Below, piece by piece: positions 110 to 42,462 of a stretch of DNA of 43,803 bases. The stretch comes from a virus: positions 1-43,803 of the IMG/VR virus record IMGVR_UViG_3300027903_000009. The stretch is one strand, 5' to 3'. Within the stretch, counting starts at the first letter, position 1. Each line of letters opens with the position of its first letter. The position numbers were made by a program, and so were the translations under genes. A model generated the notes under the pieces. It ran no database searches, was not told where the DNA came from, and worked only from the letters and a program-made list of their open reading frames with translations.

Positions 110-691
110 CTACGCGCTCGCGATGTCCACGATGTTCGTGCGCACCTGCCCCGCGAGCCCGCGCACGATCGCGAGGAAGATCGCGTCCTTGGTCTTCTGC
201 GAGGCCCCGAGCTGTTCGTAGGGCACTAGGTCGGGGTGGAACTTGTTCACGGCGTCCTTGGCCGCCCCGTAGCACCAGCCGGCCTCGATCTTCGCCGCGC
301 ACCAGTTTCGGTGCGAGTCGCCCTCGTTCCATTCGGGGTGCGCGATCAGCAGCGCGACGCCCGAGGTGACGATGGCGCGCTCCTGCTCCGGCATCCGGTC
401 CCACATCTGCGGGACCGGATCGCCGATCCCGAGGCAGTAACCGGCGCTCGCGGCGTGCGCGGCGAACGCGATCTGCTCGACCGTGTAGTGCTCCTGCGGA
501 ATCGTCATGTACAGCCTCCCGTGCTCGTCGTAGTAGCGCTGCCGGGTGTTGCCGACGTTGCTGGTGATCTTGTCGTAAAGGCAGCGCAGCGAACTCGCCG
601 CCACGATGCCTTCGGGGCGCGTCCCCGCGGGCAGGCTCCGCCACCAAGAGTGATCCGGCAGCGGAACCTCGACCGCGCGCGGGACGTTCAC
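110..691 (-). CDS. RyR-domain protein
   Basis: A 193-residue soluble protein. Residues 118-178 match the RyR (ryanodine receptor) repeat family: H118-P-E-W, the NWCAAKIEAGWCYG stretch at 129-142, then HPDLVPYEQL at 152-161 and a following charged helix. The N-terminal 115 residues are not recognised. RyR domains occur in bacteria and phages and have been proposed to bind nucleotide-derived ligands; that role is not shown here. The GTG start at 691-689 follows the upstream stop at 694 by two bases, which suggests coupled translation although the ribosome binding site is weak. It shares an operon with an Acb2-like cyclic-nucleotide sponge, which makes a ligand-binding counter-defence role worth considering. 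Confidence 0.75.
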   Translation of the reverse strand: MNVPRAVEVPLPDHSWWRSLPAGTRPEGIVAASSLRCLYDKITSNVGNTRQRYYDEHGRLYMTIPQEHYTVEQIAFAAHAASAGYCLGIGDPVPQMWDRMPEQERAIVTSGVALLIAHPEWNEGDSHRNWCAAKIEAGWCYGAAKDAVNKFHPDLVPYEQLGASQKTKDAIFLAIVRGLAGQVRTNIVDIASA

Positions 692-693
692 GG

Positions 694-1029
694 CTACCCG
701 GTCGCCTGGTCCGGCTCGATCAGCGCCGGCTCGCGCAGCGGGGTCACGGGGTCGGTGCCGGGATCGCCGGGCGCCGCGGGCGGCTTCGACTCGGTCGCAG
801 CAGCCACGCCCGCCTCGAGGTTCCCGATCGCAGTCATCAGCGGTGCGCCGCCCAGCGTCTCGAGCGCAGGGGCTCCGGCTCCCACCACCGCCACCGCCTC
901 CACGTCCCCGGCCGAAACCCCCACGATCGCCTTGCCGTCCGCCCGCATCAGCGTCAGGAAGTCGCCCAGGTACGTCCCCGCGTTGATCGTGCCGCTTTTC
1001 ACCATTACGCGCAGCTGGAGTGCAGCCAT
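694..1029 (-). CDS. Hypothetical protein (111 aa)
   Basis: Not recognised. The start ATG at 1029-1027 has CGGAGGTG about seven bases upstream, a strong site. The N-terminal half (MAALQLRVMVKSGTINAG, then short beta-prone segments rich in G, A and V) looks folded; the last 35 residues are rich in Pro, Gly and acidic residues and probably disordered. No membrane segment and no cysteine is seen. It lies between the RyR gene and a helical hypothetical in the same operon. Confidence 0.7.
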   Translation of the reverse strand: MAALQLRVMVKSGTINAGTYLGDFLTLMRADGKAIVGVSAGDVEAVAVVGAGAPALETLGGAPLMTAIGNLEAGVAAATESKPPAAPGDPGTDPVTPLREPALIEPDQATG

Positions 1030-1032
1030 CGT

Positions 1033-1401
1033 TCACACCTCCGTGTCGGGTTTCCTCAGTTTTTCGATCCGAGCGAGCAGGTCGCTTGCGCTCTCGTTCA
1101 CGATCCTCTGGAAATCGGCGCCGGCGATCTTCTCGTTGGCGTCCGCGAGCCGCATCATCCGCGCGCGGCCGTCGTGCACGCCGAGCATGTGACCCTTGTC
1201 GTACGCCTCGCCGATCTGCTCGTCGACGAAGCCGGGGTTCGAGAAGTTTCGCATGCGCCACCACGCCTCGCGAGCCCACGCGACGAGATGGTTGAGCGGA
1301 AACGGGTAGCAGACCACGAGGTCCGAGTACGACTTGCGGTAGGACAGGCCGTAGCCGCGCGGGAGGAGGTCGCACGGGCCGATTTCGCGTCGCAGGCTCA
1401 C
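1033..1401 (-). CDS. Hypothetical helical protein (122 aa)
   Basis: Not recognised. GTG at 1401-1399 overlaps the stop of the upstream gene (GTGA), with GAGGTG just upstream. It contains an aromatic segment (NHLVAWAREAWWRMRNFS at about residues 37-54), then polar helices with HDGRARMMRLADANEKI, and ends with a charged helix. The overall look is of a small soluble helical protein. The longer frame upstream of the GTG is open only because of high GC and shows no start signal. Confidence 0.65.
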   Translation of the reverse strand: MSLRREIGPCDLLPRGYGLSYRKSYSDLVVCYPFPLNHLVAWAREAWWRMRNFSNPGFVDEQIGEAYDKGHMLGVHDGRARMMRLADANEKIAGADFQRIVNESASDLLARIEKLRKPDTEV

Positions 1402-3041: not shown

Positions 3042-3737
3042 CCGCTCCCGGAGGACCCGCGCGCCGTCTCGCCGCCCCCGCTCGGTCCGCACAGGCGCCC
3101 GCTTTCCGCTCGCCCGCGCCGTCCCGATCTCCCCCGGGGAGTCATAGGCGCCCATACCCCCCTCCTGAACCCGGCACGGGGCCCCACGCCCGGGGGCGCC
3201 CGCCCGGGTACACGCTCGCGCCCGCGTCGTCGTCTTGCGCAGGGGCGGCATCGTCACGGGCCCAGCCGCCCGCCGTGTCCTCGGTGCTCGCCCCGGCGAT
3301 CATGCCTCCGCGCGTTCCGCCCGGCGCTCGTCACTCGCGGCCCAGCGTCGGGCCGCTCCCGCCGCCGCTACGCTCCCGGCGCAGGTCGAGCGCAGCGCAG
3401 CGAGCATCGGCGTGCGCGCATCAGCGGTCGCGCTGCCGGGCTCCGGCGCTCATGGGGGCGCATGCGTGCAGGCGACGGCGGGCTGTCTCGCGGGGGTGCT
3501 CGCGGAGTGCGGGAGCGTTACAGGGTCGCTGGGCGCTCGGCGGGGCTGGGTGCGGGTGCTGGCGGGTGCGTCGGCGAGCGGGCGCTGCGGGGTATCGGCG
3601 GGGGCGCTCGGGCTCGCGGTGTGGGTTCGCTGGGGGCGGCTGGCGGGCGATGGGCGGCTGGCCCCGGCGGCATTCTAGCACGGAGGGCGTCAAGTCGGCG
3701 GGGGGGAGTGCCGAAGATGCGGGGGAGCGGAATGGGC

Positions 3738-3818: not shown

Positions 3819-3899
3819 ATGACCGAGGAGCGGAAGGGAACGCACGAGCACGAGCGCAACCGTGCGCTATACGGCTGGGTCATGGGAGGTTGCCGATGA
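3819..3899 (+). CDS. Possible 26-residue leader peptide before ardC
   Basis: A short frame MTEERKGTHEHERNRALYGW followed by six residues, whose TGA overlaps the ATG of the ArdC gene (ATGA), the junction style used throughout this genome. AGGAAAAGG lies upstream. It may simply couple translation of the next gene. No database comparison is possible here, and a chance frame cannot be excluded. Confidence 0.4.
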   Translation: MTEERKGTHEHERNRALYGWVMGGCR

Positions 3900-4801
3900 G
3901 CGCGCCCCCGATCGGCAAGGCGTACGAAGTCGTAACGGAACGCGTGCTCGCGCTGCTCGAATCTGGAGTCGCACCGTGGCGCCGTCCCTTTACCGGGACG
4001 GCGGGCGACGCTGCGAACCTGGTGAGCGGGCGGGCCTACCACGGCATCAATGCGCTGCTGTTGCCGGCGCTCGCGCAGGGCTCGCGCTGGTGGCTTACGT
4101 TCAATCAGGCGCGCGAGCTGGGCGGCACCGTGAAGCGCGGCGAGAAGGGGGCGCCCGTGGTGTTCTGGACGTTCCTGCCCTCGCGCAAGCCCGGCGCCGC
4201 GCCCACGGACGTCGTACCGTTCCTGCGCTACTTCACGGTGTTCAATCTCGCGCAGTGTGAGATTGCGGACGATGCGCTGCCGGCACGTGCGCGTGAAGTG
4301 CACGAGCCGCGGCCCGAGCTGGAAGCGATTGCCGCGTGCGAAGCGATGCTCGCGCGTTACTTGCCGCCGCGCGGGCCGGCCATCAGCGCCGGGATGGCAC
4401 CGTGCTACTACCCCGTGCGCGACTCGGTGGAGATGCCGCGCCCTGAGTCGTTCTTGGGCGCTCCTGAGCGGTACGCCGTGCTTTTCCATGAGCTCGCGCA
4501 TTCGACCGGCATCGCGACGCGGCTGGGTCGGCAGGTGGCGAACCGGTTCGGCAGCGAACCGTACGGGCGCGAAGAGCTCGTGGCCGAGATGACCGCGGCA
4601 TTTCTGTGCGACGAGTGCGGCATCGGTCAGGCCGTCGTGCCGAATCAGGCCGCGTACTTGGCGGCATGGATTCGCACAATCAAGACCGACCCGCGGGCGG
4701 TCGTCGTTGCGGCGGGCGCCGCGAGCAAGGCGGCCGATTACATTCGTGGCGGTCACACGTTCCCGCTTCCCGAGGAGACTGACGATGCGCAATCGGCGTA
4801 G
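3896..4801 (+). CDS. ardC: ArdC-family antirestriction protein with zincin-like peptidase domain
   Basis: A 301-residue protein. Residues 8-125 match the ArdC N-terminal ssDNA-binding domain (KAYEVVTERVLALLESG, then PW..P and the G-x-x-YHGINALLL segment, and the GEKG..VVFW strand). The C-terminal half is the zincin-like metallopeptidase domain with HELAH at 198-202 and the downstream EELVAEMTAAFLC helix carrying the expected third zinc ligand, then the W-I-x-x-I-K-x-D segment. Family members protect incoming ssDNA or plasmid DNA against restriction. Start ATG 3896 has GGGAGG seven bases upstream. As one of the first genes of the rightward operon it would be made early, when incoming DNA is vulnerable. 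Confidence 0.9.
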   Translation: MSAPPIGKAYEVVTERVLALLESGVAPWRRPFTGTAGDAANLVSGRAYHGINALLLPALAQGSRWWLTFNQARELGGTVKRGEKGAPVVFWTFLPSRKPGAAPTDVVPFLRYFTVFNLAQCEIADDALPARAREVHEPRPELEAIAACEAMLARYLPPRGPAISAGMAPCYYPVRDSVEMPRPESFLGAPERYAVLFHELAHSTGIATRLGRQVANRFGSEPYGREELVAEMTAAFLCDECGIGQAVVPNQAAYLAAWIRTIKTDPRAVVVAAGAASKAADYIRGGHTFPLPEETDDAQSA

Positions 4802-5218: not shown

Positions 5219-5251
5219 CGGCGACCGGCGCTGCGCCCGCGCCGGTCGCCG
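5219..5251. other. Perfect 13-bp hairpin between small gene and clamp gene
   Basis: CGGCGACCGGCGC at 5219-5231 pairs exactly with GCGCCGGTCGCCG at 5239-5251 around a 7-base loop. No T-tract follows, so it is not a typical intrinsic terminator; it may be an attenuator, an mRNA processing or stability element, or a protein site controlling the clamp gene 26 bases downstream. Confidence 0.6.
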
Positions 5252-6750: not shown

Positions 6751-7058
6751 TCCCGCTCGACGAAATCGAGCTGTGCCGGCGGCGCTACGGCGCGGGCTTC
6801 TGGCACGCGATCGGCAACGATGGGCAGGTGACCGCGGGCGACGGGCTGGGAGCCGTCGGCCGCGGGCCGGACCTGAATCACGCGATCGCCGCGCTCATCG
6901 TCTCGCGGCGGCTGCTCGCTGCCGAGGCGGCACGGCGCGCGCTGCTCGAGCGGGGCGAGACGTGGGCGCGCTGGTGGGGCGCGGCCATCACGGCGGCGGC
7001 TGCCCTGGTGGTGTGCGCCACCGGAGCGTTCCTGCTCTGGTTGGCGTTCCACCGTTAG
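6747..7058 (+). CDS. Hypothetical tail-anchored membrane protein (103 aa)
   Basis: GTG overlapping the preceding stop. A soluble N-terminal 65 residues are followed by one hydrophobic helix (about residues 78-100, ITAAAALVVCATGAFLLWL) at the very C-terminus, so it would be anchored in the inner membrane by its tail. Last gene of the operon; the terminator follows 14 bases after the stop. Confidence 0.65.
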   Translation: MIPLDEIELCRRRYGAGFWHAIGNDGQVTAGDGLGAVGRGPDLNHAIAALIVSRRLLAAEAARRALLERGETWARWWGAAITAAAALVVCATGAFLLWLAFHR

Positions 7059-7072
7059 TCGGACCGAAAGCG

Positions 7073-7108
7073 GCGCCCCGGGGGATTTCACCCTCCCGGG
7101 GCGCTTTT
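7073..7108. terminator. Strong intrinsic terminator between convergent operons
   Basis: GCGCCCCGGGGG at 7073-7084 and CCCGGGGCGC at 7095-7104 form a GC-rich stem followed by TTTT on the plus strand, ending the rightward operon. On the opposite strand the stem is followed by CGCTTTCGG, so it may also help stop the leftward recombination operon, whose last gene ends at 7160. Confidence 0.9.
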
Positions 7109-7159
7109 CGTGTCGGGCGGCCTCTCAGGATGCCCCAGGATCGTCGATCGTCCGGGGCA

Positions 7160-9531: not shown

Positions 9532-9553
9532 GGACACCTCCTTGTGATGGGTC

Positions 9554-9585
9554 GACCCCCGCACCGATGGTAGGGCGCGGGGGTC
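9554..9585. other. 9-bp hairpin upstream of the beta-helix gene
   Basis: GACCCCCGC at 9554-9562 pairs with GCGGGGGTC at 9577-9585 around a 14-base loop, about 15 bases before the GGAGG site of the beta-helix gene on the minus strand. The same 9-mer forms stem S1 of the leader structure at 12428-12476. Confidence 0.5.
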
Positions 9586-9605
9586 GGGTCCACAACGGCG
9601 CACCG

Positions 9606-10585: not shown

Positions 10586-10814
10586 GCCGCACCCCCTGTA
10601 GAAGTTTGTCGACCGCCGCGCTCGCGCTGACGCCGAGCAAGTCCTGCACCGTCCACTTGCCGGGCATCACGGTCACCTGGAAGGCGCCGCAGCCGCACAG
10701 CAGCAGCGCCGCCGTGCCGCGGATCGACGTGTTCGGGTTGAGCGGGTTGGCGATCTCGATCGCCTGCGCCCGCGTCGGGATCATCCGGTGCCGGTGGAAG
10801 AGCGCGCCGATCAC
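10578..10814 (-). CDS. Hypothetical protein (78 aa)
   Basis: GTG at 10814 overlaps the stop of the annealing-protein gene (GTGA). Segments PTRAQAIEIANPLNPNTSIRG and CGCGAFQVTVMPGKWTVQ are characteristic but unrecognised; CGCG could bind metal. Sits directly behind the recombinase gene, so a helper role is possible. Confidence 0.6.
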   Translation of the reverse strand: MIGALFHRHRMIPTRAQAIEIANPLNPNTSIRGTAALLLCGCGAFQVTVMPGKWTVQDLLGVSASAAVDKLLQGVRHE

Positions 10815-12388
10815 TTGATCCCCGCCTCGCGCATCGCCTTGACGATCGCGCGGCACTGGTCGGCGTCGATCGTCTGCGCGCCCGCCTTCTGCAGCTTCAT
10901 GGACGCCTCGCCGCCGAGCGCCTTCACGATCCCGAGGTCCATGAACCAGAACGTGCCCGAGCCCGCCGGCGACTCCTTCACGAACGTGCGGTTCGGCTGC
11001 GACTTCTTCGCCTTGCCGGCGAGGAAGAAGATCGTCGCCACCTGCCCGTCGGCCTCGAACTGTGCCGCCGCCGCCGCGTCCTGCGCGACCGCGGCCGGAT
11101 CCGCCTCGGGCTCCAGCTCGGGCGGCGCCTCTTCGGTCGCGTCGGCGTGCTGCTCGTCGAAGCCACGCGCGGGCGTGTCCGCGACGGCAGGAGCATCCGT
11201 GCCCCCAGGAGCCGGAGCCCCGGTGCCGTCGGGAGTTTTCGATGCGGTGGGCGAAAGCCCCCTCTCGCCAGCGCCCGACCTCGCCCCAGGCGTCGCGACG
11301 CTGCTCTCCACCGCACCATCGGGGTATTTCTCGTTCAGGTAGGTCAGCACGCGCCGCATGTCGCTCGTGGTGTACTGCCGCGCATCGACTGTGTTCGTGG
11401 TCGTGCTGACGACACCCAACTGCACGAGCACGAGCTCAACCTTTGAGCACGCCGCGGCCTCGGACATCGGCTTGCCGCCATTCCAGACCTTGGCGATCTT
11501 CTCGGAGAGCATCGCCCACCAAGTCTTCGGCTGGTTGATCGCCGCCGAAAGCGCGTTCTCGACGCCCCGCTTCTCGCGCGCCTTCACGGCCTCCCACTCG
11601 GCCACGAATGCGACGTCGATCGAGATGCCGCCCTCGCGCACGCCTTGGATGATCCCCTTGAGCCGCACGAGATGGTCGCCAGTCATGTCCTCGATCCGGT
11701 CGACGCCGAGCGTTTCGAGCACCTGCACCTCGCTCGCGCCGAACTTCTGGCAGAACGCCACGGCCTCGATGCGCCGGCTCCCGATGTCCTTCGCGGTGCC
11801 GCGCACCGTCGCGACCGCCGCCTCGTATGCCTTCCGCCAGAACGGCTTCGGGATCACGGTGAAGACGGCCTCGCGGTACGCGATCGCCGCGCACGCGTTG
11901 CCGGTGACGACGATCATGTCGGCGTTGAGCCGCTTGTCGTTCCTGTCCGTGATCCGGCGCTTGACCTCGACGGTGACCGCGTTGTTGCGCTCGAGGTCGA
12001 AGCAGAAGCCCTGCGCGACGACATGGTCGCGCTCGACGCTGACCACGCGCGAGCCCGCGCGCACGTTGCCCCACGCGTAGGTCAGGATCTCGGCGAAGCG
12101 GACGCTCGCGCCCTCGATGTTCTTCCCGGCACGCGGCAGCGCGTACATGCACGAGTCCGCCGTTTCCTTGTCCATCGTGGCGATCTCGGTGCACGCCTTG
12201 AGCACGAGCTTGAGGTCGCCGCGCGGATACGTCTTGGCGGTGGCGACTTGGCGGTCGATCTCGGCGCGCGTGAGCGCCTCGACGACTGGCGTGGAGACGA
12301 CTTCAACGACGTCGCCGGCTGCGGGCACCAGCGCGGTTGCTCCAGTGGACTCCTCGGGCGGCGCCTCATAATCCTGATCCAAACTCAC
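10811..12388 (-). CDS. Putative phage single-strand annealing or recombination protein
   Basis: A 525-residue protein. Residues 75-280 carry a pattern I know from a broad phage family found beside recombination genes: CMYALPRAGKNIEGASVRFA, then AWGNVRAGSRVV, VVAQGFCFDLERN, a RRITDRNDKRLNADMI segment, NACAAIAYREAVFTVIPK and a C-terminal TGDHLVRLKGI. I read it as a RecT/Erf/Rad52-type annealing protein, but the family assignment is from memory. Residues 360-435 are a disordered Pro/Gly/Glu linker, and a small C-terminal domain follows (TFWFMDLGIVKALGGEAS). GTG 12388 has AGGGGG upstream. The gene has its own promoter and a structured leader (12410-12511). Confidence 0.6.
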   Translation of the reverse strand: MSLDQDYEAPPEESTGATALVPAAGDVVEVVSTPVVEALTRAEIDRQVATAKTYPRGDLKLVLKACTEIATMDKETADSCMYALPRAGKNIEGASVRFAEILTYAWGNVRAGSRVVSVERDHVVAQGFCFDLERNNAVTVEVKRRITDRNDKRLNADMIVVTGNACAAIAYREAVFTVIPKPFWRKAYEAAVATVRGTAKDIGSRRIEAVAFCQKFGASEVQVLETLGVDRIEDMTGDHLVRLKGIIQGVREGGISIDVAFVAEWEAVKAREKRGVENALSAAINQPKTWWAMLSEKIAKVWNGGKPMSEAAACSKVELVLVQLGVVSTTTNTVDARQYTTSDMRRVLTYLNEKYPDGAVESSVATPGARSGAGERGLSPTASKTPDGTGAPAPGGTDAPAVADTPARGFDEQHADATEEAPPELEPEADPAAVAQDAAAAAQFEADGQVATIFFLAGKAKKSQPNRTFVKESPAGSGTFWFMDLGIVKALGGEASMKLQKAGAQTIDADQCRAIVKAMREAGIK

Positions 12389-12409
12389 CTCGACCCCCTG
12401 CGAAAAGGA

Positions 12410-12476
12410 ACGGGCTCATCGGCCGCCGCGGGGGTCGAGGACCGCATTGGCCTTTGAGCCCGTCACTGACCCCCGC
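12410..12476 (-). promoter_or_regulatory. Structured 5' leader with pseudoknot topology
   Basis: Read on the minus strand: S1 GCGGGGGTC (12476-12468), 4 bases, S2 ACGGGCTCA (12463-12455), 18 bases, S1' GACCCCCGC (12436-12428), 9 bases, S2' TGAGCCCGT (12418-12410). Both pairs are perfect 9-mers and interleave, so both helices can form together as an H-type pseudoknot. The element begins at the expected transcription start and ends ten bases before the AGGGGG ribosome binding site of the recombination gene. T4 gene 32 offers a precedent for a leader pseudoknot that lets an ssDNA-binding protein repress its own translation. Confidence 0.65.
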
Positions 12477-12482
12477 AACGGC

Positions 12483-12511
12483 ACCGTACCGGCCGGCGTT
12501 TCGGAAGTCAA
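12483..12511 (-). promoter_or_regulatory. Sigma-70-like promoter of the recombination operon
   Basis: TTGACT (12511-12506), a spacer of exactly 17 bases and TACGGT (12488-12483) on the minus strand, just after the stop of the preceding gene at 12520. The expected start is near 12476, the first base of the leader structure. Confidence 0.7.
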
Positions 12512-12519
12512 GCCTATTC

Positions 12520-12885
12520 CTACGCGGTCGGCGGGTAGCCCTCGGGGTGGAACAGCCTCCAGCCGAACTCGGCCCACTGGCGCGTGTTCTTCGACCAGCT
12601 GTGCAGTCCCACGGCGCACACGGCCGGCAGCACCGTGCCCGCGATGAAGCCCAGGATGTTGAAGCCGTGCACGGGCTCCTGCGATGCCCCGAGCGCCGCG
12701 TGCGCCGCCGGCACCAGCGCCGGCCACGCCTCGTGGATCACCTGCGCGGCGAAGCTCAGGAATCCCAGCGTCACCGGGATCGCCTTGTTCACGAACACCG
12801 GCCACTTCTTCAGCAGCAGGCCGCCCAGCGCGAGCAGTCCGCCCTTCAGCACCATGCCGACGATCGGGTCGTTGAAGAGGTCCAT
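12520..12885 (-). CDS. Holin-like membrane protein
   Basis: A 121-residue protein with three hydrophobic segments (about 8-25, 36-50 and 77-94) and a polar tail (HSWSKNTRQWAEFGWRLF). ATG 12885 follows GGAGGG at six bases; the longer open frame upstream lacks a site. Size, topology and position at the end of the lysis cassette, after the endolysin and two tiny membrane proteins, suit a holin, but the sequence itself does not name a holin family. Confidence 0.6.
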   Translation of the reverse strand: MDLFNDPIVGMVLKGGLLALGGLLLKKWPVFVNKAIPVTLGFLSFAAQVIHEAWPALVPAAHAALGASQEPVHGFNILGFIAGTVLPAVCAVGLHSWSKNTRQWAEFGWRLFHPEGYPPTA

Positions 12886-36125: not shown

Positions 36126-36171
36126 GCGCGTAGCCTCGCACAGTTGGCCGCCCTCGCGCAAGGAAATGGGC

Positions 36172-36200
36172 TTGACGCGACGAATGGGCATGATTACAGT
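36172..36200 (+). promoter_or_regulatory. Sigma-70-like promoter of the initiator operon
   Basis: TTGACG (36172-36177), 17 bases, TACAGT (36195-36200), followed by GC. It shares TTGAC-N18-TACnGTGC with the promoter at 12483-12511. The expected start is near 36207, the first base of the leader structure. Confidence 0.7.
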
Positions 36201-36207
36201 GCGCGGC

Positions 36208-36304
36208 AGCGAGGGTGGATGAACGATTTCGGTAGCCGGGGCGTTGCAGCGCAGGCGCTACCCTCGCTAGGAACGCCCACCACCGCGCTCGCGCCCCGCT
36301 ACCG
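36208..36304 (+). promoter_or_regulatory. Second structured 5' leader with pseudoknot topology
   Basis: S1 AGCGAGGGT (36208-36216), S2 CGGTAGCCGGGGCG (36230-36243), S1' ACCCTCGCT (36260-36268), S2' CGCCCCGCTACCG (36292-36304). S1 pairs perfectly over 9 bases; S2 pairs over 13 with one bulged C. The order is interleaved, as in the leader at 12410-12476. The 3' strand of S2 ends 16 bases before the ATG of the initiator gene. An alternative short stem GGTAGC (36231)/GCTACC (36257) competes with both, so a switch between forms is possible. Confidence 0.6.
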
Positions 36305-36320: not shown

Positions 36321-36713
36321 ATGCCCACGTGCAGAGCTCGGATGCTTTCGCACACGATCAGCACCGACGCTCGCGTCGCGGGGCTTGGATCACCGCTCGC
36401 CCGGCTGCTCTACACGTGGATGATCCCGCACTGCGACAACTTGGGCCGGATGCCCGGCGAGCCGGCTTCGGTGCGCGCCACGGTGATCCCGCGCGAGCAG
36501 GACGTCAGCGACGGCGACGTGCACGAGTGGCTCCAAGACATGGACCGTTTGGGCCTCGTCTGCTGGTACCACTACGACGGCATGCGCTACGTCCAGATGC
36601 TCGGCTGGGAGAAACACCAGAAAATCGTGGGCAACATGGCGCGCACGAGCCATTACCCAGCGCCCCCCAAGGACTTGCACGCGGCGTCTATACGCCGTTC
36701 GTACGGCGTATGA
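36321..36713 (+). CDS. Replication-initiator-like protein, winged-helix domain
   Basis: A 130-residue protein with the pattern of the N-terminal domain of phage O/DnaD-like initiators: RMLSHTISTDARVAGLGSPL, ARLLYTWMIPHCDNLGRMPG, RATVIPREQDVSDGDVHEWL, then LGLVCWYHYDGMRYVQMLGW and EKHQ. This domain recognises the phage origin and recruits helicase or its loader. Usual members carry a second domain; here the gene stops soon after, within a repeat (36690-36726). ATG 36321 has CAGGTGA upstream. Behind a promoter and a structured leader. Confidence 0.65.
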   Translation: MPTCRARMLSHTISTDARVAGLGSPLARLLYTWMIPHCDNLGRMPGEPASVRATVIPREQDVSDGDVHEWLQDMDRLGLVCWYHYDGMRYVQMLGWEKHQKIVGNMARTSHYPAPPKDLHAASIRRSYGV

Positions 36714-42387: not shown

Positions 42388-42462
42388 TGGTGGCGGGAGC
42401 GGGGGTCGAACCCGCATTTTCCTGGTTATGAGCCAGGCGCTCTGCCGTTGAGCTATCCCGCA
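42388..42462 (-). tRNA. tRNA with CAU anticodon (Met, or Ile2 if modified)
   Basis: On the minus strand: acceptor TGCGGGA paired with TCCCGCC except for U1/C72, D-arm AGCTCAACGGCAGAGC, anticodon arm CCTGG CTCATAA CCAGG, five-base variable loop AAAAT, T-arm GCGGG TTCGACC CCCGC, A73 and encoded CCA. The anticodon is CAU. The unpaired 1-72 position is an initiator-like trait, but the C11-G24 D-stem pair and the T-G-G anticodon stem are elongator-like. It follows the Ig-like gene by 12 bases at the end of the leftward operon. Confidence 0.9.

Follow-up and report, generated by a model that had tools for sequence, protein, structure and literature searches.

The minus-strand leader of a putative recombination gene in this viral genome raises the question of what an RNA with several competing pairings in front of its ribosome binding site (RBS) might do. 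The window analysed is the whole stretch of 43,803 nucleotides. A preliminary description of the locus noted two perfect 9-base inverted repeats in interleaved order (S1/S1' and S2/S2') and proposed an H-type pseudoknot. The mutually exclusive use of S1', whose partner can be either S1 or the RBS, is a more informative feature of the leader than the pseudoknot. The most likely reading, with about an even chance of being right, is a switch among mutually exclusive folds that occludes the RBS and possibly also acts by attenuation.

Table 1. Coordinates of the features discussed in the text.
Feature	Position	Strand	Sequence	Remarks
Leader region	12519-12388	-		131-nt intergenic region between holin-like gene (end 12520) and recombination gene (GTG 12388)
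Promoter P1 (predicted)	12483..12520	-	GGAATAGGCTTGACT-N17-TACGGT	-35 at 12511-12506, -10 at 12488-12483; predicted +1 about 12476
S1	12468..12476	-	GCGGGGGTC	complementarity reaches 12482 with 2 GU pairs
S2	12455..12463	-	ACGGGCTCA	5' base of rod hairpin 12464-12409
Anti-SD	12430..12440	-	CCTCGACCCCC	5' arm of 11-bp RBS helix, overlaps S1'
S1'	12428..12436	-	GACCCCCGC	pivot strand; partner is S1 or (as 12440-12430) the RBS
S2'	12410..12418	-	TGAGCCCGT
U-rich stretch	12403..12410	-	UUCCUUUU	directly 3' of rod hairpin; terminator-like but imperfect, as read from the sequence
RBS arm	12388..12398	-	GGGGGTCGAGG	most of SD AGGGGG (12399-12394) and first base of GTG start
Recombination gene	10811..12388	-		525 aa, phrog_3657 family; probable ssDNA-annealing protein
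Promoter P2 (predicted)	36163..36200	+	GGAAATGGGCTTGACG-N17-TACAGT	P1 motif; extended motif site at 36169
Second leader	36208..36304	+		S1 36208-36218/36258-36268, 11 pairs; S2 36230-36243/36292-36304, 13 pairs, one bulge
DnaD-like replication initiation protein	36321..36713	+		Paenibacillus phage 'DnaD domain protein' matched by tblastn at 43% over 95 aa
Motif site P3	3735-3767	+		motif at 3735
Motif site P4	1994-1963	-		motif at 1994
S1 9-mer sites	2066, 7750, 9554, 9577, 12428, 12468, 24816, 31868, 42399		GCGGGGGTC

Stems of the leader

The two interleaved repeats are present as first described and exceed chance, an interleaved pair of stems of at least 9 bp having appeared in 1 of 5000 dinucleotide shuffles of the leader (frequency 0.0002). 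Exactly three perfect stems of at least 7 bp occur in the leader region, two of 9 bp (S1 and S2) and one of 11 bp over the RBS (12440-12430/12398-12388), the last of which the preliminary description had missed. Three such stems were found in none of the 5000 shuffles, and an 11-bp stem over the RBS had a frequency of 0.0014 (0.14%). S2 is interleaved both with S1 and with the 11-bp stem. S1' overlaps the 5' arm of that stem, so that the C-rich strand 12440-12428 has two mutually exclusive perfect partners, S1 (9 bp) or the arm holding the Shine-Dalgarno (SD) sequence and the start-codon base (11 bp). The RBS region (CGCAGGGGGTCGAGGTG) is G-rich and can pair in the 11-bp helix, and the SD lies ten bases past the end of S2', as had been stated. 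Also overlooked was that S2 continues into a longer, nested rod hairpin, of which it is the base and which has helices of 10, 4 and 5 bp separated by symmetric 2x2 internal loops.

S1 had been described as beginning at the predicted transcription start, and this did not hold in RNA terms. With GU pairs allowed, S1 stays complementary for another 6 nt upstream and forms 15 pairs with 12436-12422; because it passes the predicted start by those 6 nt, the repeat has no natural boundary at the +1.

At 70% GC, the window has a composition in which stems are common. When interleaved helix pairs were ranked over the whole window on both strands, with GU pairs plus one bulge or mismatch allowed, the recombination leader came first of 475. 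Both interleaved pairs with a span of at most 75 fall in this leader, compared with 0.35 +/- 0.70 in shuffled windows (maximum 4 in 60). Interleaving somewhere in the window is thus not rare, and it is the position inside the leader that is notable.

Promoter and downstream gene

The promoter previously proposed for the leader (-35 TTGACT, -10 TACGGT, spacer N17) is present, and P1 is probably real, judging from consensus motifs that recur in the window. There are two matches to the pattern TTGACN-N16-18-TANNNT where 0.17 are expected, one at P1 and the other at 36172 (+), which is P2. An extended motif, GGAAWxGGCTTG, recurs four times against 0.04 expected, and the genes behind it, in four early-gene operons, are the recombination gene (P1), a DnaD-like initiator (P2), an ArdC-type antirestriction gene (P3) and an Acb2-type gene (P4). 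A stricter promoter scan of the window called no promoter. The P3 gene (about 3896-4801, +) matches ArdcN (4.6e-26) and MPTase-PolyVal (1.2e-31). The small P4 gene (1634-1876, -) matches Pfam Acb2_Tad1_hairpin (6.9e-12) and is a candidate anti-CBASS/anti-Thoeris sponge; its leader has weak interleaved stems, the last arm of which overlaps the RBS. Nearby, an open reading frame at 113-1375 (-) has a RyR domain match (2.5e-9) near its C-terminus.

The recombination gene product matches phrog_3657 (1.2e-42), a family of unknown function. Its AlphaFold model (pLDDT 82.6) was compared by Foldseek, and the best-related folds were lambda Red-beta (prob 0.99) and 80alpha Sak (prob 0.93), with no match reaching E 0.001. 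Relatives adjoin YqaJ/PD-(D/E)XK-like nucleases. These folds and neighbours indicate that the product is likely an ssDNA-annealing protein, in agreement with the earlier assignment.

Competing folds and a proposed switch

Partition functions were computed for growing transcripts starting at 12476, considering nested folds only. S1 had a probability of 1.00 when the 3' end lay at 12427-12418, the S2 rod rose from 0.67 at 12409 to 0.99 at 12400-12395, and the RBS helix reached 0.87 at 12388. The balance is sensitive to the ends chosen: a start at 12480 gave 0.98 for S1 and 0.01 for the RBS helix at 12380, and adding downstream coding sequence changed it again.

The proposed element is a 5' leader that would act in cis on an early phage operon. 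In the nascent RNA, S1:S1' would form first and S2:S2' would follow as its competitor; once the RBS had been transcribed, the C-rich strand could close over it. The winning fold would then set expression of the ssDNA-annealing protein, S1:S1' leaving the RBS open and the pairing of S1' with the RBS leaving it closed. The S2 rod with its U-rich stretch may in addition terminate part of the transcripts, among them those reading through from the lysis genes. The elements are present in the sequence and compete in the predicted folds; the working of such a switch in cells and the nature of its trigger are inferred. If this is right, an RBS-hiding leader on the ssDNA-annealing gene, together with a similar leader at the replication initiator, would offer a compact system in which RNA-timed expression of early genes could be tested.

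A second interleaved leader

The leader of the DnaD-like gene also carries interleaved stems, which begin at the predicted +1 of P2. It ranked 8 of the 475 interleaved pairs, and none of 1000 shuffles of this leader gave an equally strong element. No comparable perfect RBS helix was found in it. The first arms of S1 are identical in the two leaders at 7 of 8 positions, and a change from G-C to A-U preserves the pair; chance is about 0.03 for the likeness alone, in a comparison that covers only the two leaders of this genome. The two leaders are mostly dissimilar. The probability of randomly placing such strong elements at both sites is about 1e-3 times 1e-4, a figure for a coincidence noticed post hoc and under a null in which non-coding regions may hold more stems than assumed. 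It is conceivable, and on balance distinctly doubtful, that the recombination and replication operons form an early regulon: both would have one extended promoter, and the transcripts of each would begin with an interleaved RNA switch able to form a pseudoknot, so that folding of the RNA, or a trans factor common to both, would govern recombination and replication proteins together.

Relatives and database searches

Searches by distant blastn in phages, by exact 34-mer in viral contigs and by protein-guided scans with the recombinase, terminase, capsid and initiator found no close relative of the leader or the phage in phages, viral contigs or genome contigs. Among 90 distant recombinase homologues (37-49% aa identity), many of whose genes are translationally coupled and lack a leader, interleaved stems of at least 8 bp occurred in none and an RBS stem in one, with an AT-rich leader (36% GC). 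The conservation check proposed earlier thus lent the pairings no support, in a set whose leaders are not true homologues of this one. In Rfam 15 at the gathering threshold only tRNA matched and no family was found at the leader; matches to the leaders at E <= 10 were at chance level. A match of the second leader to a SAH riboswitch (17 bits, gathering threshold 37) was rejected as chance. A tRNA-Met (CAT) gene lies at 42388-42462 (-).

Alternative explanations

Other readings partly overlap with the switch and with one another. One, by analogy with T4 gene 32, is that S1:S1' and S2:S2' form an H-type pseudoknot serving as an autoregulatory or ligand-binding element, which we consider unlikely. 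The interleaved order on which this proposal was based is real and is the strongest in the window, and with 9-bp stems the loops of 4, 18 and 9 nt seem long enough to bridge; when S1 is extended to 15 pairs, however, only 3 nt are left to cross it. A rough estimate for the pseudoknot, from a crude model of stack sums plus 9.6 kcal/mol, was -34.9 kcal/mol; the nested fold (to 12409) came out at -34.3 and the RBS hairpin (to 12388) at -42.6. In the second leader, which has the same order, the estimates were -43.8 for the pseudoknot and -43.1 for the nested fold. As nested folds in the recombination leader equal or beat it in stability, the pseudoknot is possible and not preferred, and the earlier proposal is supported for the order of the stems, and for a structured leader between a promoter and a probable ssDNA-annealing gene, but not for the fold. 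The unstructured A+U-rich RBS region of the gp32 type is also absent.

Equally unlikely in our judgement is that the S2 rod and U-rich stretch are an operon-boundary terminator that ends the packed late and lysis operon, the other pairings being by-products of GC-rich sequence. Minus-strand genes are packed from about 36.2 to 12.5 kb and end at the leader, the rod is strong (z -4.5 to -5.2, rank 7 in a window-wide 60-nt fold scan), and in read-through RNA from 12519 it is the 0.99 fold. Further hairpins lie at gene boundaries (7057-7116 and 5219-5251); these are strong, GC-rich and terminator-like, in apparent gene gaps, and have poor U tracts. A terminator would nevertheless sit inside the leader of the next gene, its U tract is imperfect, and it leaves unexplained both S1:S1' and the exact 11-bp RBS helix. 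The rod with its U-rich stretch was not called by a terminator scan, which admits loops of at most 8 and so leaves this hairpin out.

Chance, or repeats acting at the DNA level as operator sites, would make the S1 9-mer merely a recurrent word of the genome. The word does occur 9 times where 1.6 are expected, a count reached in 0 of 100 shuffles, and it is part of the hairpin at 9541-9600, upstream of the next operon, but this reading predicts neither S2, nor the exact complementarity to the RBS, nor that the other TTGAC promoter should have an interleaved leader as well, and we regard it as improbable. Of the 60-nt folds in the window, the most significant (z -5.6) is this hairpin at 9541-9600 (-), CGACCCCCGCGCC/GGTGCGGGGGTCG, which lies immediately before a gene with a fn3-like domain.

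A put-like antitermination RNA, by analogy with phage HK022, would suit structured RNA from +1 in two early operons that share a promoter motif, but appears very improbable and was rejected because the ArdC leader has no interleaved stems and those of the Acb2 leader are weak, the two leaders in question also differing in sequence and being interleaved rather than built of successive stem-loops.

Comparison with known systems

The folding switch that we favour resembles RBS-sequestering riboswitches and translational attenuators, which use an anti-SD/anti-anti-SD design. Here too one strand alternates between an upstream arm and the Shine-Dalgarno sequence, although the leader matches no Rfam aptamer family. 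Transcription attenuators work through antiterminator/terminator pairs, and in this leader the 5' arm of the terminator-like S2 hairpin lies inside S1:S1', with the result that the first fold blocks the second; it differs from them in its imperfect U tract and its extra RBS helix, and no leader peptide was identified.

In HK022, putL and putR are sequence-similar and each consists of two successive stem-loops (PMC9378689). The present leaders share with them structured RNA near the +1 of two early transcripts, but are interleaved and mostly dissimilar. The gp32 operator of T4, T2 and RB69 gene 32 is a pseudoknot of about 28 nt, and the RBS region after it is A+U-rich and unstructured (PMC535899, PMC3014915). 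As in T4, the leader described here precedes the gene of a phage recombination protein likely to act on ssDNA and has a possible pseudoknot upstream of the RBS; unlike T4, it has no unstructured A+U-rich repeats, its G-rich RBS can be sequestered by the 11-bp helix, and the predicted product is of the Red-beta/Sak type (phrog_3657) rather than a gp32-like SSB.
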